Notes under the pieces: model-generated
The model's input: only the letters and a program-made list of their open reading frames with translations
What the model was told of the DNA's origin: nothing
Database searches by the model: none
In this document: piece by piece, positions 1 to 16,725 of the stretch
Layout of the letters: each line of letters opens with the position of its first letter
Numbering within the stretch: the stretch's first letter is position 1
Assembly (NCBI RefSeq): GCF_964355755.1
Contig: NC_092679.1
Coordinates: 5,704,001 to 5,768,000, forward strand
From: Antedon mediterranea
Taxonomy: Eukaryota; Echinodermata; Crinoidea; Comatulida; Antedonidae
Length of the DNA: 64,000 bases
Direction: 5' to 3'
Translations under genes and position numbers: made by a program

Positions 1-1119
1 ATATAAAATCTGTTTTGTGAATTTCCTTTAAAACAAGAGGACAATGATAAGGAACTATTTCAACGGTATGGAAGTCATCATCATCTCCAGCAAACAGCGA
101 CCATGTGTCAGTCCTGCATTCCCGGGACATGATAGTGTTTTTTCTTTTTTCAAAACGATTATGTCAACCTCTATTAATAATTAAATATGTAAGTGGCTAT
201 ATCTTTAAATCATTGACAGATTGAGCCTGTTCTTTCGTTAGTCTTATTGTTTAAATGAATGTTATAATCTAGGCCTATAAGCAAAATGTGTACTTGTCGG
301 GAGTGCGAAAAATGTTTGATGCGCTACTGCTTTATTGCGGCGAAATTTCAATCATGATTCTGTAAGGAAAATGAATGGGAAAACTACTTCCCTGGAAGAA
401 AATGTTTGGATAATCGGCTTCAAAGTTAATTCAAACAATAATACGAACATGAGAATAAAAAGGAGTCACCAACTTCCTGTTGTTAGGCTAAGATTAATAA
501 TCGATTGGGAATTATTTCCTTTTGGTCGGGAGGGAACAACCATTACTCCGTGGAACAATTACAGCCCGACAGTCTTCATAGAACGACTGGCCAGCTAACA
601 GCTAACAGGTAAGATTACAACTTTGTTTTTGTTAAAATATTAATTTTCAAACAAATGACTGCAAAGTATTTTATTTAACGAATCAAGCAACGTATTAGAG
701 GTTGATATCGAAGAGTAAACATTCGAATTTCATGTCGACCCGTTTTGAATGTTTGTGGAGGGAGACACCGGCATTTTGCAACACAAAATAAAATTGGAAA
801 AAAGCAACAATAAAAAAAAACAAATTTAAACAGAGTTCTAACAAAAAAGTCAATTGCTGCTTTATTTCAGCTGCTTGATTAACTAAACAAAATTGGAAAG
901 TATTATCAAGTTATTTAACGCCCCACAATAAAAAAAAAAGTGGGGCGGTGGATGTCTGTACAACACCATCCTAATAACAACCATTAATCATGGTCTCTAC
1001 TACACTTAAACATTGCATAAATAATGCACCCAAAATGAATAAAATTATCTAATGGTTTTAAAGTTTCCTTCGAGTTGAAAAAATATAAATGAACTTACTT
1101 TTCTTTAATTTTCGTGCAG
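1..1119. other. 5' flank of the secreted-protein gene, with a possible non-coding first exon
   Basis: No convincing coding exon is seen. A good splice donor (CAG|gtaag) lies at 608/609 and a strong pyrimidine-tract acceptor ends at 1119, three bases before the ATG of the gene that follows, so a non-coding first exon ending at 608 is likely. The open frame at 335-598 has no ATG at its start and no recognisable protein character, so it is not called. No TATA box could be assigned with confidence. Confidence 0.35.
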
Positions 1120-1122
1120 ACT

Positions 1123-3638
1123 ATGGCTGTCCTTAGGTTTTTTTGTTTCGCGCTTATTCTGAGTCTTTGTTTCGGCAGAACTATGGCGAATGAAACGGAG
1201 AATATAATTAAAAATATTCGAGCATTGATTTATAAGGCACTCTACGATAATGTTCTTGAGAAGACCGGAGGACCAAATGAGTTGAATACCCTTGTACTCC
1301 TAGATCCAAGTGTTCCTTTGAACAAGGAAGACATTGGACACACACCAGATCCATCAACGCCACCAGATTTGTCAGAGTTCAATAATCTACTTCCTACAAA
1401 ACTTTTAATTAATCATCTGAACTACAAAAATGGACATATAATCCAAAAGAATGGCGTTGCACAAGTTTACAAAAATATACTCGACAAAATGATCGTTGAA
1501 AAACCAAAGTTAAATAACATTGAACAGAATAGTTACAACGAAGCGGAGACTTTGACTAACGAACGCGTTTCTGGTTCGGTGATTGGACGTACAAGTAATG
1601 AAGACGTAACAAAATTGGAAGTTTATCGCCATTTTCGATCAATTTACTTCAATGCCAAAGAAACCAAGGAGAAAGAGATATATGAAAAGAAAAATACACT
1701 GAATTCAATGGAATATCGAAATTGGTACAAGTACAATTATAGAAAATTAAAAGATAACGAAAAATCTGCTCTACAAGATTGGGTAATTAAAGGCTACAAG
1801 AAGATCATAAGTGAAGCGCTGGAGATCATTGATGACGTTGATGAAATTTCTATACTAGAGATAGACGATGCAAAGAATGAATACGAGGCCGCTATTTACA
1901 AAAACGAAAACGCATTGAGCTTAAAGAACATAATCAAAGATGAGATTAAATATGATGTTGAATATTCCCCAACAAATTGGAACGACCATCTTTATGATCA
2001 AATGTAAGTTTTGTTTTTAAGACAAGTATATTCTCTATCATGCCTGATATTTTATTCCATTGATTTTGCAACCGATTCTCGGTACTCTAATCACTGGTAG
2101 GCCTACATTAACTAGCAAATCCCACAAACAATTATTTTTAATGTTATGATTTGTTTACAGACATGCTCCGACACCAACTTCTTCTCAATATCTAAACATG
2201 ATTGTTGATCTGAAAGAATATTCAATCGTACTACAGGCTATCGCCAACGCTCACGCATCAGACGCAATCGAAGCGCAAGACAATATAAATACAGACGAAG
2301 CGACTGTGAAGGCTCAAGAAGATGCACTAGTAATACAGGTTGCTGAGTTGATAAAGCAGCTTGACGATTGCAATGAATTAAATATGAATTGCTTAAGCGT
2401 CGATGCACTCGCTGAAAAACAGAAGAACGATACAATCAAGTGGGAAGAAAATCAGACACAACTCGATGAATACAAACTAATTCTAAAGAACGCCATCAGT
2501 ATCAAAACGGCGGTTGATAATCTTATCATAAAGATTGGAGATAAAATAACCAAGTATGAAGAGGATTACGAAAATGAAAAGATAATTGAGTTAGAAACGG
2601 ACAATGATTTGTTAAATAATCATGACTTCCCTGAGGAGGAATGGGAAACCTTCTACTTCAATTCCCAAATTGAGCTGAGAAATATTAACAACGAAATTGG
2701 AAGAGTTGCGGAATTCAAACCAGCAGTATTCAATATCGATAGTCCTCATAACGTACTTGATGTGATTGTTCGGAGAAATGAGAATCTAGAATATGAAATC
2801 AGAATGCATTACAGAGGTGTTGGTATCTATAGGCCTTGGTTTAACGAAGAAATATTTAAGAACGATAACATCAAATTTGTAAGTTGCCGTTAATATATTT
2901 CTCTTGAATTTTTCAAGTTTTTTTTTATCAGCATGTTAAGAAAAGAATGGAACGTAGGCCTATATCTCAACACTTAAAGCCATTTTAGTCTGAACTACTT
3001 ATCGTTATTTTAGCTATTGTATCTTGTAAATTCTGAAGTCTATTTTAATATCAGGCAGGAGAATTTCTTGACAAAAAAAATTGATCTTTTAAAGGGAAAC
3101 TTTGTGTGGGTCCTGAGAATGTCCCTTAATATTTGTTTACTGTGGTTTTACGGGTTTTTTCATGTAACTTAAAAAATTATATTTATGTTTTTATTTTCTG
3201 ATTTAGAATGACAACACATTGGTATCACCTGGCTACAAAGACGACCTGATTAACGAATTAAAAAAGAAAACAAACAACAACAAAGAAGATCTGTACAAAT
3301 TCCCTCTTTATCCGACGGGCCTCCTCATTGCCAAAGATATCAAGATAAAAATCCGTAATTTGGATGAGAAAGCGGGCAAGGAGTTGATCAAGAATTCCTA
3401 CAACGCTGATCAAATCGGCATCGATCCTCCAGAAATTGTTGCTGATGATAACAATGACAACGATAACAATGCAATCCACCACTATGGAAAAATATTCGGG
3501 TTTACGTACAATAACCGTGATACCAATGCAGTTCGCTATAGAGTGAGACAGGACTACAATGACGTCGACATAGAATTACTCGAGCCACATATTATTGGTC
3601 AGTACTGTGACATCATGAAGAAATTCCCTAAAAAATGA
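1123..3638 (+). CDS. Secreted helix-rich protein of unknown function (676 aa, three exons)
   Basis: Exons 1123-2003, 2161-2878 and 3207-3638 join in phase with consensus GT-AG borders and end at a TGA. I chose the ATG at 1123 because it directly follows a splice acceptor and opens with a clear signal peptide (MAVLRFFCFALILSLCFG), so the product should enter the secretory pathway. Residues about 20-290 are charged and mainly helical. Residues about 300-420 are rich in Glu, Lys, Gln and Ala and look like long amphipathic helices or coiled coil. The last ~200 residues look more beta-like and contain the short motifs GIYRPWF and LYPTGLLIAKDI, which vaguely recall uncharacterised bacterial and fungal proteins; that is an impression, not a family assignment. 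An Asp/Asn run (DDNNDNDNN) sits near the C-terminus. No transmembrane segment follows the signal peptide. I do not recognise the family. Confidence 0.8.
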
Positions 3639-4961: not shown

Positions 4962-7900
4962 TCACTTCTTGTCGTTGACACTCCGTCGTGGTGACCTCCT
5001 TGGCGACGTTGAAAGAAGAGGATTTGCTGAAGCTATTCGGACTGTCTTTTTCTGAGTGGGTTTGTGAAGAGGCTTCATTTTTGGTGGGGGTCGAAATTTA
5101 GGTAAGCGAACAGATTTTGTTTTTGTATTATGAGTTTCATTCTGAAAGACACAAAATTATGAGAAATAAAACAAAACTATTTTTTACAAATTATAAAACT
5201 ATGTATATTTGAAAATGATAAAGGGTACAGTTACGCAAAATGATACGAGCACTGTTTTGGAAAATAAGGTTAGAGCCAAAGACACGAACAATGAAAGTGA
5301 TATCATACAAATTTTAGAGGGCAGTATCTACCTTGTTATAGAATGTAAATTCCGAACATGATACAAATCTCAAATCCTTCTAAAAACATCTGCTCAATTG
5401 TCATATTACCAAAATTACCAGAAAGGGGTTAGTCAAGGAAGCTATCACAACACAGGTTGGTATGTAAGCATGTGCCTGTGTTTATGATCTATTGTTATGG
5501 CTATAATGTTATGGCAATAAAAAACTTTTAATTAATGTAAATATCAAGATGGAGAATATTCAAAATCAATAGAACCGTACCGTGGTGGTAATCGCTGGAG
5601 CATGAACACTGATCATGTGAACAAGCATCTTTTTCAAACGACCAGTACACTTTCTGTCAACGTCATCTTCAAGCAAAACCCCGTACCTTCGCTTATATTC
5701 ACGTCGAATTAACACAAGATCAATCTAAATGAAATAATAAAATTAAATTCATATTTTTTTTAAGTGAAATTTAAACAATTATGTAAAAAAAAACATAATA
5801 TGAAATAATTTTGCATACATGCATTTTGCCTGTGGCATTATAAGGCAAAATGATTTCATGCTATTGATCCCATAAAAAAAAAAATTAATAAAATGTGAAA
5901 ATGTGTGTAGTTGGGCGCTTTCTTGTAGATGCTTTAATTGTAGAACGTAATTATTTATTAATTTTTTTCTTTCTGTGCTCTGTTCTGGGTTGACCAACTA
6001 GCATAGGTGTTTAGCACCTGTTTGGTCTTTCCTTGCCTTTTATAATTGTTTTGTCTTCTTTGTAATGTATATGACAGAAATTGAATAAATACAATAAATA
6101 AATAATAAAATAAAAGGTGAATAAAGAAAATCTCAATATGCTATTCGGAAGTGCAGAAATCATCTTCTGGGTGTAATAGTCATTCCAATTACCTCTGCTC
6201 TTGTTGTGATAATTCTCAAGACAGTCAAATTATCACCTTTCTTCAAACTGCTGTGTAGAACATCCACAAAATACTGGACACAGTTATCAAAACATTTCAC
6301 TGGAATAAATAAGATCAAGTTAGTTAAGTTGAAGATGCTCTCCAGGAGGAATGCCATCCTGAGATGAGTAGCAGTAATTAGTCTTGTTTATTTTATTTCA
6401 TTTATATGTAATGTTTACTTTCTATGGACCAGAGATTCCGAAAAAAAAAAAGGTTGAATGAAATAACAACAATTATTAGAAATCCTAATACACTGGCGAA
6501 TGGTTTGTCTATCACTGTATATCATCTGTCAATTTACTGAAATATTTACTACTCTGCATCCTAAATTCGAAACACACTTATATGTCCTCGTCTCCCACCT
6601 AACCTAGATAAAAGTTATTTAATTTTATAATAATATAATAATAAAAACAGTTTCTTTAAATTGTATTTGTTGAATGGTGAAGATATTTCATAAGTTAAAA
6701 GATTGACTGAATCTTTCAACTCATAAAGTATATTCTCCATATTTAACTCCTGAACTTTTATTATTTGTATAATCATCTTACCTAATGTTAACATCATAAC
6801 TTTCATATCAGCTGCTAGAACATTCTGTAGTTCACGCTTAAGATTTTGTCCAGATTTCTAAATCAAACATTAAAATAAACATTAATTTCAAGTTCTTCTG
6901 TGGATAATATAAAACAGATATTGACTGCTTAGAGGTTAAATATTTACATAGGCTATGTAATATAAAACAATATTACATAGCCTATGTAAATACGCTAATG
7001 TGATTGGTTGAAACTGCATCACATGATTACCGCTGCGAGGATCGTAAATCGTATATATCCTCGAGAACGATGATATTGACTGTGTAATTTTCGCGTAATT
7101 ATCGTGTCCCCTGTCATTAAACATATAGATTCTCGAGTACGATGATATTGACTGTGTAATTTTCGTGTGCCAACACTAGCGTTGCCGATAAATAAACAAA
7201 AGTCATCTACTCGATCTTGAACTCGGGTGGAATTGTCACTCCATCGCAAGACAACGCTTCAACCGCTGCGCCACGGAAGTTGCTTGAAGAAATTAATCAT
7301 CTAAACTATTTAAACTATGCATACATAGCGCCCTCATTTGTTATAAGTCCACCCTAAATGTGATGAAACACCGTTTGTGATTGGTCAATACTCACGGTAG
7401 TAACCTAGTAACTAGTACGCGCTGAACATCCGGTGATTCGGCTCCTCGAAGATCGAGAAGAAGACGAATTGTTTATTCGGCCTACCTGATTATAATATTA
7501 TTATTTTTAATAGGCTTATTGATGGAAATTCTTCTGTTAATTTAAACGACCTAGGCCTAAGTGAATATTTTATTGCCAAGGAATCATTAATTAGTAATTA
7601 TCTGTATATTATTCTTCGCAAGGTAAGGTGTCTAGGCAGGCTTGTTTAAATACAATACAAATACTAGGATAGGAGGCCTAGCCTAGCTTCACCCAACCCA
7701 GCAGACTTGTTCTTGGCTATATAATATAACAGATATTGCCTTTTATATCGGTTAAATATAAGATTTGACATCCCCTCGGGAATGATATTAAGTTCTCGGG
7801 AAATATATATTCCCTCGAACTTAATATCATTCCCTCAGGGATGTCAAATCTTATATTTAACCTCTAAGCAGTCAATATCTGTATAGTATTGAATCTCAAA

Positions 7901-10900
7901 GTTGTATTTTAAAACCTTGTTCTTACCTGTGTGTATCTCTGGAAAACACTACCAATGTGTTCAAAGCTTTTATTTTCCATTAAATTAAGCAGCTGTCCTT
8001 CCACATTCCAGCGGCTGTCTCCAGCATCTATAAGGTAATCCACATCACTCTCCACTTCCTCTTCGTCCACTGACCCTGTCTCTCTCCTTGCTCCCTGTGA
8101 ATAAAAGAATGCAAAACATATAGGCCTAGAAGATATTATAACATAATCATCCATCCCCATGATCAAAGAGAATAACTGGTGTTTCTCAACGATTGCTCAA
8201 AAGAGTATCCAGATAGTCCAGTTAACTTATTTTTATTGCATGGCCTATGGGGTAACAATGAATCACTTCTTCTTGGAATTTCAAATATAAACATTTCACA
8301 TGCAGTTTCAATTTTGTTTAAAAAATGTTTACCAATTTGAAGAAACAATAAGCAAATACTTTTTAGTACACCAAGTGGTTTACCTTGGCTAAAGCTAGCA
8401 TCATCTTCATTGAATCTCCACTAAAATTGTCTTTAATGCCATCCTCAATAGTTTGATCAAATTCCATTTTGTAGGCATCCTTAATGAGGCTGATGGCCTG
8501 TAGGTACATGTAGAAGTATAAACAATGTAATGAATTGAATTGAATAAACTTGATAGGTGAACACATTAAACAACTAACTGCATATATAGAATCTCACCCT
8601 ATTCTGGGAAGTGAATACGTTACTGTGAAATGAACAAGGGGGAAATATACAAAAAAAGAAACACTGTACACTACTTAACTCCTATTCAGGGAATGTCCCT
8701 TGGTTGTGTCCCAAAGGTGTCCCCTTAATATGATTATTATTATATACACAATTGTTTTGTCACACACAATGCATAGACAGCTGGAGAATACACAATATAC
8801 AAAAGTAACTATAGTCTCAGATTATTACAGTAAAGTTTCTGTTTCATTACCATGATTACTTTTTATTATCAATCAAAAGAAAATCTGTACCTACCTTATT
8901 ATTTCGTGTACATAAGATTTCAACCATAGTTGTATAAGAATGGGTCTGAGGATAAAATGAGCATTTTTAGAATGTAGTAAACATTTAAAATAGACTATGT
9001 TGTTTTCCTCAGCATTCCCCATTTTACAACAAATCAACAAATTAAGAATTGTAATACTGGTAATTTCTTGTTATATAAAAAATGTCTTTTGCAAGTTTTT
9101 TCAGTTTATGGAATGGGTGTAGTTAAACACAACTTTTGTGTTTAAACATGTACAGAAAACTTACCAATAAGGCATGATTTAGGCACAAAGCATCATACGT
9201 CTGTCGTTCTTTAAGTAACGCATCAAAAATTGCATCATAATCTTCGCCTAACTTCGTTCTTAATTCAGTTTCAAGGTCCTAAAAGATAACAATTATACAC
9301 TTATAATGTCCATATTATAAGCCTACAAATCATTTTTTTTTCTAACGTGCTATTATGACCATATTGGCTTAATTGACAAGTTCCATAAAGCATCAGAATA
9401 TATTCTGCAACTTTACATGATCATGCTTGATTGTAAAAGTGATGACGTACAGTGGCATAAAAAATGTCTTATGATCATTAAAAATATTCAATTTCTTGAT
9501 ACTTACTAGTTTGTACTGAGCTTGGAACTTGACTTTTGTTTGGTGGCGCTGTGCATATGTCCGACGAACCAGTGCCTCTATCAGGTTTTTCTGTGTTTGC
9601 CCTTGAAAAATGAAAGATAAACAAATTGAAATAAATATTTCAACGACGTCTAAAACATAAATTCACTTGCAATGTAATATGCATCCCCATAAATTGGTAA
9701 TAGAAAATCATTGTAGAGGTTTTACAAATACATATGTACTGTAATACATAGTGGATATGTTGCTTTGCATTAAGTATGTTTAAACAAATCCAACAGCAAA
9801 CATTTTGTATATAAACATGAATTCACATACCTAGACCCTTTATTACCCTAAATAATTTAGTGGAATCTTCACCATCATCATATTCTTTTGGTTTACTAAA
9901 TTCCTTTTTCTGAAATTAAAACAATACATATAATATAATATTCAAATTTAATGATAATAAACTGAAATTTTTAATATAGCCAACAATTTGTACTCCTTTC
10001 CTAAATTAAATTTACCTTTTTTTTCTCCTGTTCCTTTTTTCTAAGGTTACCAATGGTTGGTAGTTTTGTTGGCTGTTTCTTTAACATTCTTTTTTCTGGA
10101 GAAGGTTTAATACTTTCTTGTTGCTATGGAAATAAATAATACGTTTAAAGGTATGCTATTCATTGTTTAAATAACACCTTAATAGCTAACCAAGGCCATT
10201 GGCTTCTAGTGTCACTAAACCTGATGGATGCACTGGACAACCTGTAGAACCAAGGTGAACCCTATTATAACTGAATTATTACATGTTTTTATTTATTTAT
10301 TGAACTTCTCACTAACTTACTGTTAGTGAAGGATCGGGATCAACAGGTGGTAAACAGTGGCTGTGTGTGACAGTGGCTGTTTGTGACAGTGGCCGTGTTT
10401 TGTGTGGACTAGTACACCGGGGTAACACCCTACTCGTCTGAAAAGATATACTAGGTTTTTTAAAGTGAGCTGTGTGTACACGATTTAGTGTCCTTATCTG
10501 AGAAGACTCGTTCTACCACCGGAACCATGGAGCGAGTGAGCCTCGAACCCTTGTAGTTTATGTCTTCAATTCACTTTTCTTCTTCTTGTGTAGTAATAAA
10601 ATAATAATCTCTCCCGTTTAGGCATGACAACCTTATTAGTTAATTAAAAACAGTTATTCAAATAATTATTAATTTCAACCTACCACTTCTTCCTCTTGTT
10701 TATCCCCAGTGTCATCTTCATTTGAAATCTTCAGACCTTCAAAACCTCTAGTATCTATCTCATACGATTTTGTTTCTTGTGTTTTTTGCGATAGGTAATA
10801 CTCATGCATCAGATACTCATCCTCCTATGATAATCAAAAGTTTAAATAACTCAAGTTTACAAAACAAGTTGAATATACCTTTCAAACTTATTAAGCTTGT

Positions 10901-13900
10901 TCACCACTAGAAAAAAAATTCTATCACAACACAACTGACTAGGCAACATAAGAAAATCTTCTTCTATCAATCTTGCATCCCCTCTTATGACATGTTGAGT
11001 CATCACTTTTACAACATACACAAAGCAGAAAATGATGTTCATTTGCCATTTGTGACATGCAAGTATGTTTTTACAGCACTTCGCATTGATACGTTACGGC
11101 ATTGCGTTCCTAGTGGAAACCAAGCTTAAAGTGTAAAATAAAAAAGGTCATATACCCATTTATCTGAATCATAGACGCCATTAACATTGTTTAATCGTCT
11201 CTGTATTTTAGAATTCTGTTGTGCTATTTTCTCTTGTTCTCGTTCCATAAATGGGCCATTTAAACTAGAAATTAAAGAAAAAAACAATAACAATATAAAA
11301 ATATGGAATACGCCTCATTATGAATAAAAAAATGTCCATTTCATTGTTCTGTGTGTTGTATGTACTATACAGTGTAATGAAGTTTATAAATTATGTTACC
11401 TTTTTGGTTCATAATCCCAATTCCAATTGTCTAGATGACCATTTGACCGAAGCACATTGGTCAGTTTTGCTAACAGAATACGATTTTCATAATCTATTAC
11501 AGCTTGTCTTTGTTCCTCAGCCTAAAAATAAATGAATTTTAGCTTTTAAAACAAAATAAATTTAACTTTTAAAAAAGTTAGTAATAGGTAGAGTAGGCCT
11601 AAATTGAAATACAAGTTGATTGATATAAAAGGCAATAATATAATAGTAAAGAGAATAACAGCATTTTGGATAAAGTCTGTCAAACACTTATATGAAGAGA
11701 ATCTAAGTCTAGTTCGGTTTTCTTATGTTTCTTTCGCTTCTCTGTAGGTCAGGTTCGCAAAAATGACAATGCCAACATCCGAAATTTTTTTATTTGTTAA
11801 CAAACATGGAATACAGTGAGATGGCCCTTTTTAGGTTAACCATGTTTTACAATATAAATTTTTTAATATATGTTACCTGTATTTTCTTCATATTAATTTG
11901 CATGTGGTAAAATGTTTTGGGTTTTTTTGTGTCTAATCCATGTTTCATACGGTTCATCTAAAATGAAAAAAGAAAGTAAATTTAAACCATTCAATCTTAT
12001 TCATTAAAAAATCACAACTCTGTCAATTTAAAGATGTACTGTACTGTCCTCCAAAAACATGAAAAACAAAGTTTAATAATAATAATGAATAGTTTATTTT
12101 GTAGTTTTAATAAAGTTAATCACTTCCGTAGAAAAAAACAAAATAAAATAATGTTTTCACTTATAAAATGACAAATACTGTAAATGGTTAAATTCAACCA
12201 AAAACCCATTGGCTGGCAGCCAATTTGACAATTTTTTGCTTTAAATTATAGTTTTTTCAGGTAAATACATTTTTTTTTTATCCAAGTTTTGGTCAAAGTG
12301 GATAACTATTATGTTACATTAAAATGGCATATTCAACAACAACAAAATTTAAAAACTATTTTTCAGGGGGACAATACATCTTTAAAAGATTATTTTCACT
12401 GGAGAAATATCTGAAAGAGAAGAAGAATTATTTTTTTAGGGGGACAATACATCTTTAAAAACTTTAATAAAACATGAAGTTTGTTAATAAGACCATATTG
12501 GAGATGACAATATACTAAATAGATGTCAAATTGGCTAATGAATACAATATTGCCTGTGTTGATATTAGTAATTATTTTTATTTCGAGCAATTCCAAATTT
12601 GTTTTTATATTATTTCAATTAATAAGGAGTGGCTACAGTATGTGTCTTCAAAAGATCGTTCTCATCAACAACGTATACCTGAGATATTATTAGGATTTAG
12701 CGAATCTGAGCCACTGGTTGTCATAGAAATACAAAACAATCCCTTTTAGTCAAACACTATTAATGAAATCAATGTTATCTTGTACAATATTGGCAAAGAA
12801 TGTTTGATTAGCTAATGAGATTTCAAGACCGTATTTTAGAGAGGCATTCTTAAGTGTTTTGGCTTTCATAAAGATGTATTGTCCCCCAAAAACATTAACA
12901 ATGAAGAATTTATTTAAAAAAAATCAAACTTTGAATATTCTGTATGTCATTTAGCAGTTTTAATAAAGTTATTCATTACTATAGAAGAAAAAAATGAATA
13001 ACTATAATGTAGTGACATTATAATGGCATATTGAAAAACAAAATTATAATTGCTTTTTTTTCAGGCAGGAGGTGGGGGGGGGGGGAGGGGTGGGATATAC
13101 TGTAATATAGTGTTGTGTTGAGGTACTAATGAAGGACTCTTACTCGCTTAACTGTCGTAACACATATTGTTTATTCAGTATAATACTTCAGTACAATATA
13201 CAACTATAAGTATAGATAAGGAACGGAGGATCAGTGATGCTGTCGGTGAGGTGTGAAGTGTGTAGGTCTGCTTCTGAAGAAGTGGCTGTGAGGTGTGTGC
13301 TCCGTGAGGTGGCTGTAAGGTGTGTGCTCCGTGAGGTGGCTGTAAGGTGTGTGCTCCGTGAGGTGGCTGTAAGGTGTGTCTGGGCTCTTCTGAAACTTGG
13401 GGGTATATTGGCTTCGGTTCATTTGCATATGTCACAACGTCATCTGTGAGGGTAACGATTGGTCCTAAGTTGGTCCAGGGGTGTTTAGTTAGAAGTGATT
13501 AACGGTATAATAAGGTATTTCTATGATGGATGACACTGTCAAATCTGTACTTAAATAGTGTCAATCTCTCCTGGTTTAACGATGGAAGTACGTGTTTTCT
13601 TTAGGGATTCTATTATGGTTATTAAACATCTGGACAAACTCTCCTCTGGACTTTCTGGGTCAAGTTTGTGAACTTATTTGAATTCTGATACAAAGGTCAA
13701 TTTCTTAATTATAAAAGTATATCATTATATTACAATACCTTGAAAAAATTAATAAATATTCTACAGTATCTTTAATTCATTTCATTTGAATACATACAAG
13801 ACATATTAAACTATTTTATTTCAGTACAAATCTTGGAATCAATACTTTTTAACCATGGATGGAACTAATTCCTCTACCCTCTTACTCAAATGAAGAAAAC

Positions 13901-14355
13901 AGATGTGTTTGCAAATGTACATTTCAAAGCAGGGTTAGAATTGAATGGTCAAATAGTCTAAATATATTTTAATACAAGGATTTCATTAAAAATGTCCATT
14001 GATATCAATAAATCAATGGCATAACATTAATTGGTACAATATTTTTAAAACTATAGCATTTACACATCAATTGATAAAAAAAACTTGGATTGTGAGCATG
14101 GATTATTAGACTAATTTCCATGGTGTGTGAGAAAGAAGATAAAAATAAAAAACGAAAATCAAAACGATAAGTCTACCATTAAGAACATACAAAAAACATG
14201 TAATTTCATTTGCAAATTACAAAAGATAAAAAGTTGGGACATGTAGGCCTACTTACCTTTTGTAAGTGGAGTTTATAAGCTCTGTCATTCCATTTCTTTT
14301 GAAGTCGATTACTACAAGCAGGAAAAGCAGGTACTGTTCGAGGCATGCTGAGCAT
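4962..14355 (-). CDS. CFAP97-like / annexin fusion protein (634 aa, 17 exons)
   Basis: Exons in transcript order: 14257-14355, 11877-11957, 11400-11521, 11156-11264, 10684-10824, 10321-10437, 10016-10123, 9831-9909, 9507-9601, 9165-9278, 8895-8945, 8384-8497, 7927-8094, 6782-6857, 6193-6299, 5581-5724, 4962-5141. All borders are GT-AG and all phases match. Residues ~20-105 carry the CFAP97 pattern (KPKTFYHMQINMKKIQ, then a basic/acidic helix, YENRILLAKL and NWNWDYEPKS); that family is tied to cilia and sperm flagella. Residues ~138-270 are a charged, low-complexity linker. Residues ~275-575 form four annexin repeats: I (LIEALVRRTYAQRHQTKVKF), II (MVEILCTRNN, with DNFSGD), III (NVEGQLLNLMENKSFEHI) and IV (NLTVLRIITTRAEIDLVLI). 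Type II calcium loops (GxGT) are mostly degraded; repeat I has GLGQT. The tail is basic and Pro-rich and ends in RRSPRRSVNDKK. A second in-frame ATG at 14346 could be the start. Annexins bind anionic membranes, so a membrane link inside a cilium is a reasonable inference. Confidence 0.85.
6914..7882. mobile_element. TIR element of ~970 bp in an intron of the annexin-like gene
   Basis: The left end ACAGATATTGACTGCTTAGA at 6914 is mirrored by its reverse complement ending at 7882. Inside are a second inverted pair (ACATAGCCTATGTAA near 6950-6990), a ~90 bp direct repeat (7040-7170) and a hairpin at 7749-7862. No transposase frame is visible, so it is non-autonomous. The same terminus occurs alone at 49248-49276. 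Confidence 0.75.
7749..7862. repeat. Near-perfect hairpin within the TIR element
   Basis: Arms of ~45 bp: GGTTAAATATAAGATTTGAC reading in from the left and its reverse complement at the right, with CTCGGGAATGATATTAAG close to the loop. Confidence 0.85.
12027..12386. mobile_element. MITE with termini TTTAAAGATGTATTGTCC
   Basis: The left end TTTAAAGATGTACTG at 12027 and the right end GGGGGACAATACATCTTTAA at 12386 are inverted repeats. It lies in intron 1 of the annexin-like gene. A further terminus follows at 12432-12460 and a related copy at 12871-13070; the internal motif ACATTAAAATGGCATATTCA recurs in other copies. Confidence 0.7.
12871..13070. mobile_element. Second, truncated copy of the same MITE
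   Basis: It begins AAGATGTATTGTCCCCC and keeps the internal GTGACATTATAATGGCATAT. The right end runs into a G-rich tract (GGTGGGGGGGGGGGAGGGG, 13071-13090). Confidence 0.65.
13284..13378. repeat. Minisatellite, ~30 bp unit x3
   Basis: Three near-identical units around GTGTGTGCTCCGTGAGGTGG in intron 1 of the annexin-like gene. Open frames across this stretch on both strands are by-products of a unit divisible by three. Confidence 0.9.
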
Positions 14356-15385: not shown

Positions 15386-16725
15386 TTATAATCGTTAATG
15401 TAGAAAACGCCAGCTAATGTCGAAACAACCGTTAATGTAGAACAACCCACCGCTTATGTAGTAAAACCTCCAGCTTATGTAGAAACACCAACAGCTTATG
15501 TAGTAAATAAAAATCAACACCAGCTAATGTAGAAACAGTCAACAGCTTATGTAGTAACGAAAATTGCCTCCCAGCTTATGTAGTTACTATCGCCAGCTAA
15601 TGTAGAAAATGTTATATATTTTACAAAAATGTCTCATTTATGTGCAAGCATCGATCTTTACTTAGCTATCAGTCTTTCCACCTCTCGTAAGCAACCAACT
15701 TTCTAAAACGACCACACATCTCCTTAGTAGTGGCAACCATCTCTGTTAAGGGACCGCTTCTCATAATCGACCACCTCTCGTAAGGGATTACCTCCTCTCA
15801 TAAGGGACCACTTCTCATAACCGACCACCTCTCGTAAGCGACCACCTCTCTTAAGGACCACACCTTTCGTAAATGACCACCTCTTTTAAGGGACCACGAC
15901 CTCTTTCTCTCTATTAAAGGACCGCTTCTCATAATCGTCAGTGACGACTCTTTTAAAGGACCACCTCTCTTAACGACCCCACCTCTTGTAAGTGACGACC
16001 TCTTATAAAGGACAACCACCTCTATTAAGGGACTGCTTCTCATAATCGACCATCTTCCATCACAATGACCTCTCGAAAGTGACCACCTCTATTGCGACGA
16101 CCAGTGTCTCTGTTAAGGGACCGCTTCTTATCATTGACCACTTCCGAGAGGTGGTCGATTATGATAAATGGTCCCTTAAAAGAGACGGTGGTCATTCAAT
16201 AGAGGTGATCACTTACGAGAGGTGGTCTATTATAAGCAGTGGTCCCTTAATAATAGAAACGGTGGACGTTCAACAGAGGTGGTCACTTACCAGAGGTCGT
16301 TGTGACGGGAGATAGTCGATTATGAGAAGCGGTCCTTTAATAGAGAGAAAGAGATCGTGGTCCCTTAAAAGAGGTGGTCATTTACGAGAGGTGTGGTCGT
16401 TAAAAGAGGTGGTCGCTTACGAGAGGTGGAAAGACTGATAGCTAAGTAAAGATCGATGCTTGCACATGAATTATAGACATTTTTGTAAAATATATAACAT
16501 TTTCTACATTAGCTGGCGATAGTAACTACATAAGCTGGGAGGCAATTTTCGTTACTACATAAGCTGTTGACTGTTTCTACATTAGCTGGTGTTGATTTTT
16601 ATTTACTACATAAGCTGTTGGTGTTTCTACATAAGCTGGAGGTTTTACTACATAAGCGGTGGATTGTTCTACATTAACGGTTGTTTCGACATTAGCTGGC
16701 GTTTTCTACATTAGCGGTTGTAACA
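15386..16725. mobile_element. Fold-back element, ~1.34 kb, almost wholly palindromic
   Basis: The outer arms (15386-15690 and 16430-16725) are inverted copies made of repeated CAGCTTATGTAGTAAA-type units. The inner halves (15690-16130 and 16135-16430) are tandem runs of ~20 bp units like CGACCACCTCTCGTAAG, inverted on the right. No transposase is present. A truncated one-arm copy lies at 38946-39388. The layout matches fold-back type elements, whose inverted repeats are themselves tandem arrays. Confidence 0.85.

Follow-up and report, generated by a model that had tools for sequence, protein, structure and literature searches.

The window, a 64,000-nucleotide stretch of the Antedon mediterranea genome (contig NC_092679.1, positions 5,704,001 to 5,768,000), carries on its minus strand a predicted gene in which a CFAP97-type axonemal domain is likely fused to an annexin core. 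Our main reading, to which we assign a probability of about 0.55, is that one gene encodes one 595-residue protein, which binds to ciliary doublets and whose annexin part serves as a calcium-independent scaffold. The fusion itself is likely; for the fused protein we infer a ciliary function by analogy. The predicted layout runs from a CFAP97D domain through a charged linker to a four-repeat annexin core, in which no type II calcium site is intact, and ends in a basic tail. To our knowledge, annexins have no settled role in animal cilia, and a single gene that builds an annexin core onto an axonemal domain would provide a direct handle on annexins in this setting. The fusion predicts both a location on the outer doublet surface and a calcium-independent role, which are testable in one animal.

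The predicted gene begins with a start codon at 14355 and ends with a stop codon at 4962, without internal stops, and is divided into 16 coding exons by 15 introns, all of which are GT-AG; the window contains no N. Its features are as follows.

4962-14355, minus strand: whole coding span of the CFAP97-annexin gene; open, introns all GT-AG
14257-14355, minus strand: exon 1, start codon at 14355, residues 1-33; the alignment to 8SNB CFAP97 begins at residue 9
11877-11957, minus strand: exon 2, CFAP97 domain; open frame, Pfam, spliced alignment
11400-11521, minus strand: exon 3, CFAP97 domain; open frame, Pfam, spliced alignment
11156-11264, minus strand: exon 4, end of the CFAP97 domain; open frame, Pfam, spliced alignment
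10684-10824, minus strand: exon 5, CFAP97 C-terminal extension and acidic linker; spliced alignment, in-frame codon score 0.32
10124-10683, minus strand: intron 5, overlapping AATAAA at 10301, 10297 and 10293; possible CFAP97-only end
10016-10123, minus strand: exon 6, basic linker with Met197; openness and splice sites, in-frame codon score 0.13
9831-9909, minus strand: exon 7, end of the linker and start of annexin repeat 1; spliced alignment
9507-9601, minus strand: exon 8 (95 bp), annexin repeat 1; Pfam, spliced alignment
9165-9278, minus strand: exon 9 (114 bp), annexin repeats 1-2; spliced alignment
8895-8945, minus strand: exon 10, annexin repeat 2; spliced alignment
8384-8497, minus strand: exon 11, annexin repeat 2; spliced alignment
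7927-8094, minus strand: exon 12, annexin repeats 2-3; spliced alignment
6782-6857, minus strand: exon 13, annexin repeat 3; spliced alignment
6193-6299, minus strand: exon 14, annexin repeats 3-4; spliced alignment
5581-5724, minus strand: exon 15, annexin repeat 4; spliced alignment
4962-5141, minus strand: exon 16, remainder of the basic tail and stop; openness and splice sites

The exon structure was examined with a home-made spliced aligner, to which foreign proteins were submitted as queries one at a time. The 8SNB CFAP97 fragment recovered exons 1-5 (score 246) and the annexin A6 core recovered exons 7-15 (score 293), in both cases with the same splice sites as the gene model. Control scores, obtained in six runs on four other 11.5-kb stretches of the window, two of them on both strands, did not exceed 103 for CFAP97 and 98 for the annexin A6 core, and the opposite strand of the locus gave 56 and 81. 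No homologue of exons 6 and 16 was found in the homology searches made, so their support consists of openness and splice sites, supplemented by codon usage for exon 6. In-frame codon scores were positive and off-frame scores negative for exons 5, 6 and 7; for exons 1 and 16 the reading frame was not the best-scoring one, and for exon 10 it was the best-scoring yet negative. The basic tail spans residues 527-595 (69 residues; 17 K/R, 2 D/E, pI 12).

Both halves were recognized by Pfam profiles. Residues 30-125 match Hmw_CFAP97 (PF13879) with 65.9 bits (cut-off 25.6; E 5.9e-18), covering positions 1-99 of the 100 in the profile, and the C-terminal half matches Annexin (PF00191) in four stretches with 138.1 bits (cut-off 25; E 1e-40). 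An earlier note on this DNA had proposed a CFAP97-type N-terminus joined to a complete four-repeat annexin core in one seamless open protein; these matches and the uninterrupted 595-residue frame bear it out. The span it gave, as well as the exons it placed at 11156-11264 and 9831-9909, agree exactly with our model, and its count of seventeen exons is corrected here to 16.

By sequence, the N-terminal half belongs with the short CFAP97D proteins, otherwise described as small proteins without other domains, whereas the window protein has 595 residues and an annexin core. Its closest PDB relative is CFAP97 in 8SNB (chain 4T; 97.2 bits, E 9.3e-27, query residues 9-159), a structure that we take to be the sea urchin sperm doublet, the search having named only the molecule. 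The next relatives, both named CFAP97D1, are 9V10 (62.3 bits, E 4.9e-16) and 8OTZ (54.7 bits, E 1.1e-13), whose chains align to query residues 15-150 and 15-152. At 231 residues for 8SNB CFAP97 and 164 for CFAP97D1, these proteins are too short to hold an annexin core; in contrast, the window protein has four annexin repeats after this part, and its sequence is more divergent. The same genome carries two further CFAP97D genes, on contigs C3 and C5, with 72% and 58% identity to the 8SNB fragment, as against 36% for the window gene. A long CFAP97 match, at C5:5112603, has the domain near the end of a serine-rich 429-residue open frame. The window protein has the Pfam domain in common with long CFAP97/Hemingway proteins, but the long form in this genome is a serine-rich frame with no annexin among the matches listed on its contig. 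More generally, the matches listed include no annexin on C3 or C5, the contigs of the other CFAP97 genes, and no CFAP97 on C2, C6 or C11, the contigs of the other modelled annexins.

Annexins are normally calcium-dependent membrane-binding proteins. The best PDB match to the C-terminal half is an annexin VI chain, aligned to residues 229-525, among the best 60 of 81 matches; a second set of PDB annexin matches comprises the best 60 of 70. The half is very divergent, with a top identity of 34%. In the alignment to annexin A6, the type II calcium sites (GxGT-(38)-D/E) are broken in all four repeats: K, N, V and K stand in place of the acidic cap, every GxGT loop is altered or shortened, and the loops of repeats 2 and 4 have lost residues. 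The earlier note had regarded most of these sites as degraded; the degradation is evident, and "most" understated its extent. Among the other annexins modelled in the genome, seven of eight keep most type II sites. The exception, L018 (G000:C11:2881500-2890499), is a second annexin of this genome with degraded sites, the GxGT loop and acidic cap occurring together in none of its four repeats.

The loss of these sites was compared with change elsewhere in the core. The eight comparison sequences (L018 and gapped columns excluded) are uniformly hydrophobic at 78 columns, 73 of which are still hydrophobic in the window core. The core also keeps 48 of 88 other conserved columns, but of the 18 conserved calcium-site columns it keeps only 2 (Fisher p 6.7e-4, with the caveats that columns are not independent and that the calcium columns were chosen by hand). 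With the hydrophobic core largely retained and the calcium columns largely replaced, general divergence alone is insufficient to explain the calcium-site loss. Compared with annexin A5, annexin A2, the halves of annexin A6, and the chains of PDB entries 6B3I and 6TU2, the window protein has the four repeats and the hydrophobic core in common, but it lacks intact type II sites and carries a CFAP97 domain before the core and a basic tail after it.

Intron positions bear on the origin of the gene, which was found in a single copy in the assembly. Eight other annexin genes were modelled, a lower bound on the number in the genome, since weak matches at C11:20979809, C11:2908060 and C4:4826477 are left out of this count. 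All eight introns of the annexin core match, in position and phase, introns of four of the eight modelled genes (L014, L016, L017 and L018 on C11, ten introns each), although one of these matches (residue 91 versus 89) hinges on the placement of a two-residue gap. Introns 1-3 of the CFAP97 half have the same position and phase as the three introns that the C5 CFAP97D gene has in the aligned part, intron 4 has no counterpart there, and the C3 CFAP97D gene has one of its three introns in common with the window gene. Because these positions are found in unfused genes, neither half is likely to be a retrocopy. Judging by these introns, the gene seems to derive from duplicates of two ordinary genes with introns, which were then joined: the CFAP97D duplicate would have landed upstream of the annexin duplicate, and the pair would have come to be spliced as a single gene. 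Both halves would then have diverged fast, with unfused relatives of both remaining in the genome. The annexin genes on C11 lie in two clusters, at 2.88-2.92 Mb and 20.96-20.98 Mb, and ten core introns are common to four of the five modelled genes there.

In trees of both halves, which included outgroup chains 9E2G and 9E78 that are presumably from protists, the window rows are long branches whose joins may be false, and no placement is given. The end branches of the two halves measure 4.01 changes per column (median 0.65) and 2.35 (median 0.38). Such lengths fit joint change since the fusion; they fit weak constraint too.

The homologous part of the CFAP97 side ends at 10759 and that of the annexin side begins at 9882, about 0.9 kb away, with intron 5 (560 bp) and intron 6 (106 bp) in the linker. 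We regard it as likely that both halves belong to one fused coding unit, whether or not it has alternative ends. An alternative that we consider unlikely is that two neighbouring genes on the same strand have been misjoined, a short CFAP97D gene whose end lies in intron 5 and an annexin gene that starts in or near exon 6, at Met197. The AATAAA hexamers at 10301-10293 would suit such an end, as would the stop met two codons after exon 5 is extended into intron 5, and translation from Met197, beyond which no further Met precedes the annexin core, would give the core a short N-terminal arm, as is usual in annexins. When both proteins were submitted as one end-to-end query with no linker, exon 6 was skipped and the join ran from 10746 to 9866, the other exons being kept; this query thus misses exon 6 and the join sites, and the linker is unconfirmed by homology. 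Against two genes, however, speak the short distance of 0.9 kb between the homologous parts, the GT donor of exon 5, which is in frame with exons 6 and 7, and the codon usage of exons 5, 6 and 7, each of which scores best in frame. Exon 6 begins at a splice acceptor with an in-frame stop directly before it. Exon 7, the first annexin exon, lacks an in-frame ATG of its own, and none occurs before the in-frame stop at 9918, three codons upstream. The frame also stays open with exon 5, exon 6 or both removed. Polyadenylation-type hexamers are also common here, averaging 3.5 per kb on the minus strand of the window. Still, a CFAP97-only transcript could end at the intron 5 hexamers or at either of two ATTAAA in intron 6, and an annexin-only one could be translated from Met197. 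A true fusion with alternative ends, in which a CFAP97-only form is polyadenylated in intron 5 alongside the full form, appears rather improbable: the intron 5 hexamers and the length of the read-through form (186 residues, compared with 231 in the 8SNB protein) would agree with it, but the three hexamers overlap in a single A/T-rich run, against the window mean given above.

Two further alternatives accept a fusion and differ on what became of it. The gene could be decaying, a past fusion under weak or no constraint, as the long end branches of both halves and the retention of only 2 of 18 calcium-site columns might suggest; the 595 open codons in 16 exons, the uniformly GT-AG introns and the 73 of 78 hydrophobic columns retained make this quite improbable. 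It could instead be that the annexin half still binds membrane with calcium through sites other than type II, for example as a signal-dependent clamp. Annexins have another kind of calcium site, type III, and the check made here covered type II sites; nevertheless, with type II broken in four of four repeats and loop residues deleted in repeats 2 and 4, we give this possibility a very slight chance.

Under our main reading of a calcium-independent, doublet-bound fusion protein, the CFAP97D part would dock on doublet microtubules in cilia or in sperm flagella, a location suggested by its relatives in solved sperm doublets, and would carry the annexin core there as a calcium-independent scaffold. 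Together with the basic tail, the core may be constitutively attached to a partner protein, to tubulin or to the ciliary membrane. A more specific and doubtful proposal is that the CFAP97D module fixes a calcium-blind annexin on sperm or ciliary doublets, where it forms a permanent bridge from the doublet surface to either the flagellar membrane or a fixed partner. If true, this would represent a new class of axonemal adaptor created by gene fusion, in which a calcium-switched protein fold has turned structural.

Published excerpts provide context for both halves. In mouse sperm, CFAP97D1 is reported to be located with TSSK6 and EFCAB3 and to be missing upon loss of TSSK6 (PMC13066092). It is described as a microtubule-associated protein found in sperm and not in other cilia (PMC11779644), and a review classes it as an outer-surface protein (PMC13406575). 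Its loss is reported to damage the axoneme in mouse sperm (PMC7444823) and in fly sensory cilia (PMC10425847). For annexins, ciliary-cell markers common to oyster, flatworm and urchin larvae are reported to include members of this family (PMC10396302), and an urchin annexin is described as expressed in the apical organ and ciliary band (PMC4300403). In the latter source, annexin and KIAA1430 (C17orf105) figure as two distinct genes of the apical organ with a sea urchin homologue apiece, which implies no fusion there.

The diplomonads offer the nearest comparison for an annexin at a flagellum. Annexin 3 of Spironucleus is described as staining around the outer doublets, where it is thought to lie near tubulin (PMC4863580). 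According to the same excerpts, alpha-14 giardin and Spironucleus annexin 3 retain type II calcium sites, while other alpha-giardins are mostly without intact ones and Spironucleus annexin 13 has lost all four. Since alpha-14 giardin and annexin 3 keep their calcium sites, they lend no support to a calcium-free flagellar role. Compared by description, the diplomonad proteins resemble the window protein of our main reading in being annexins at flagella; they differ in that alpha-14 giardin and annexin 3 have intact type II sites and that a CFAP97 domain goes unmentioned in the excerpts. Taken together, the ciliary literature on CFAP97D1 and annexins makes a calcium-blind annexin on the doublet plausible by extrapolation.

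No described CFAP97-annexin architecture was found among the open-access papers listed, judged mostly by titles and the starts of abstracts, in keeping with the earlier note, which knew of no annexin with this partner. This negative covers papers; automatic animal protein annotations may well show the architecture.

Elsewhere in the window, 36 open frames of at least 90 residues are present; ten were scanned with Pfam, giving one match, an SH3 domain. NCBIfam, whose models represent bacteria and archaea, returned no match. Long open frames of 304, 247 and 143 residues lie at 1093-3638 on the plus strand, the first with a signal-peptide-like start by eye, and none has a Pfam match. Several repeat structures occur in and around the gene. 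Intron 1 contains a 27-bp tandem repeat in three in-register copies (13279-13379). In intron 12, 38-nt inverted repeats that are 92% complementary and 909 nt apart delimit an element at 6906-7890 with an inner 53-nt hairpin at 7750-7862, which looks like a non-autonomous DNA transposon. Upstream of the gene, a fold-back element at 15609-16500 has perfect 26-nt outer arms, which may extend past 16500, the end of the search, and internal minisatellite-like units in both orientations.
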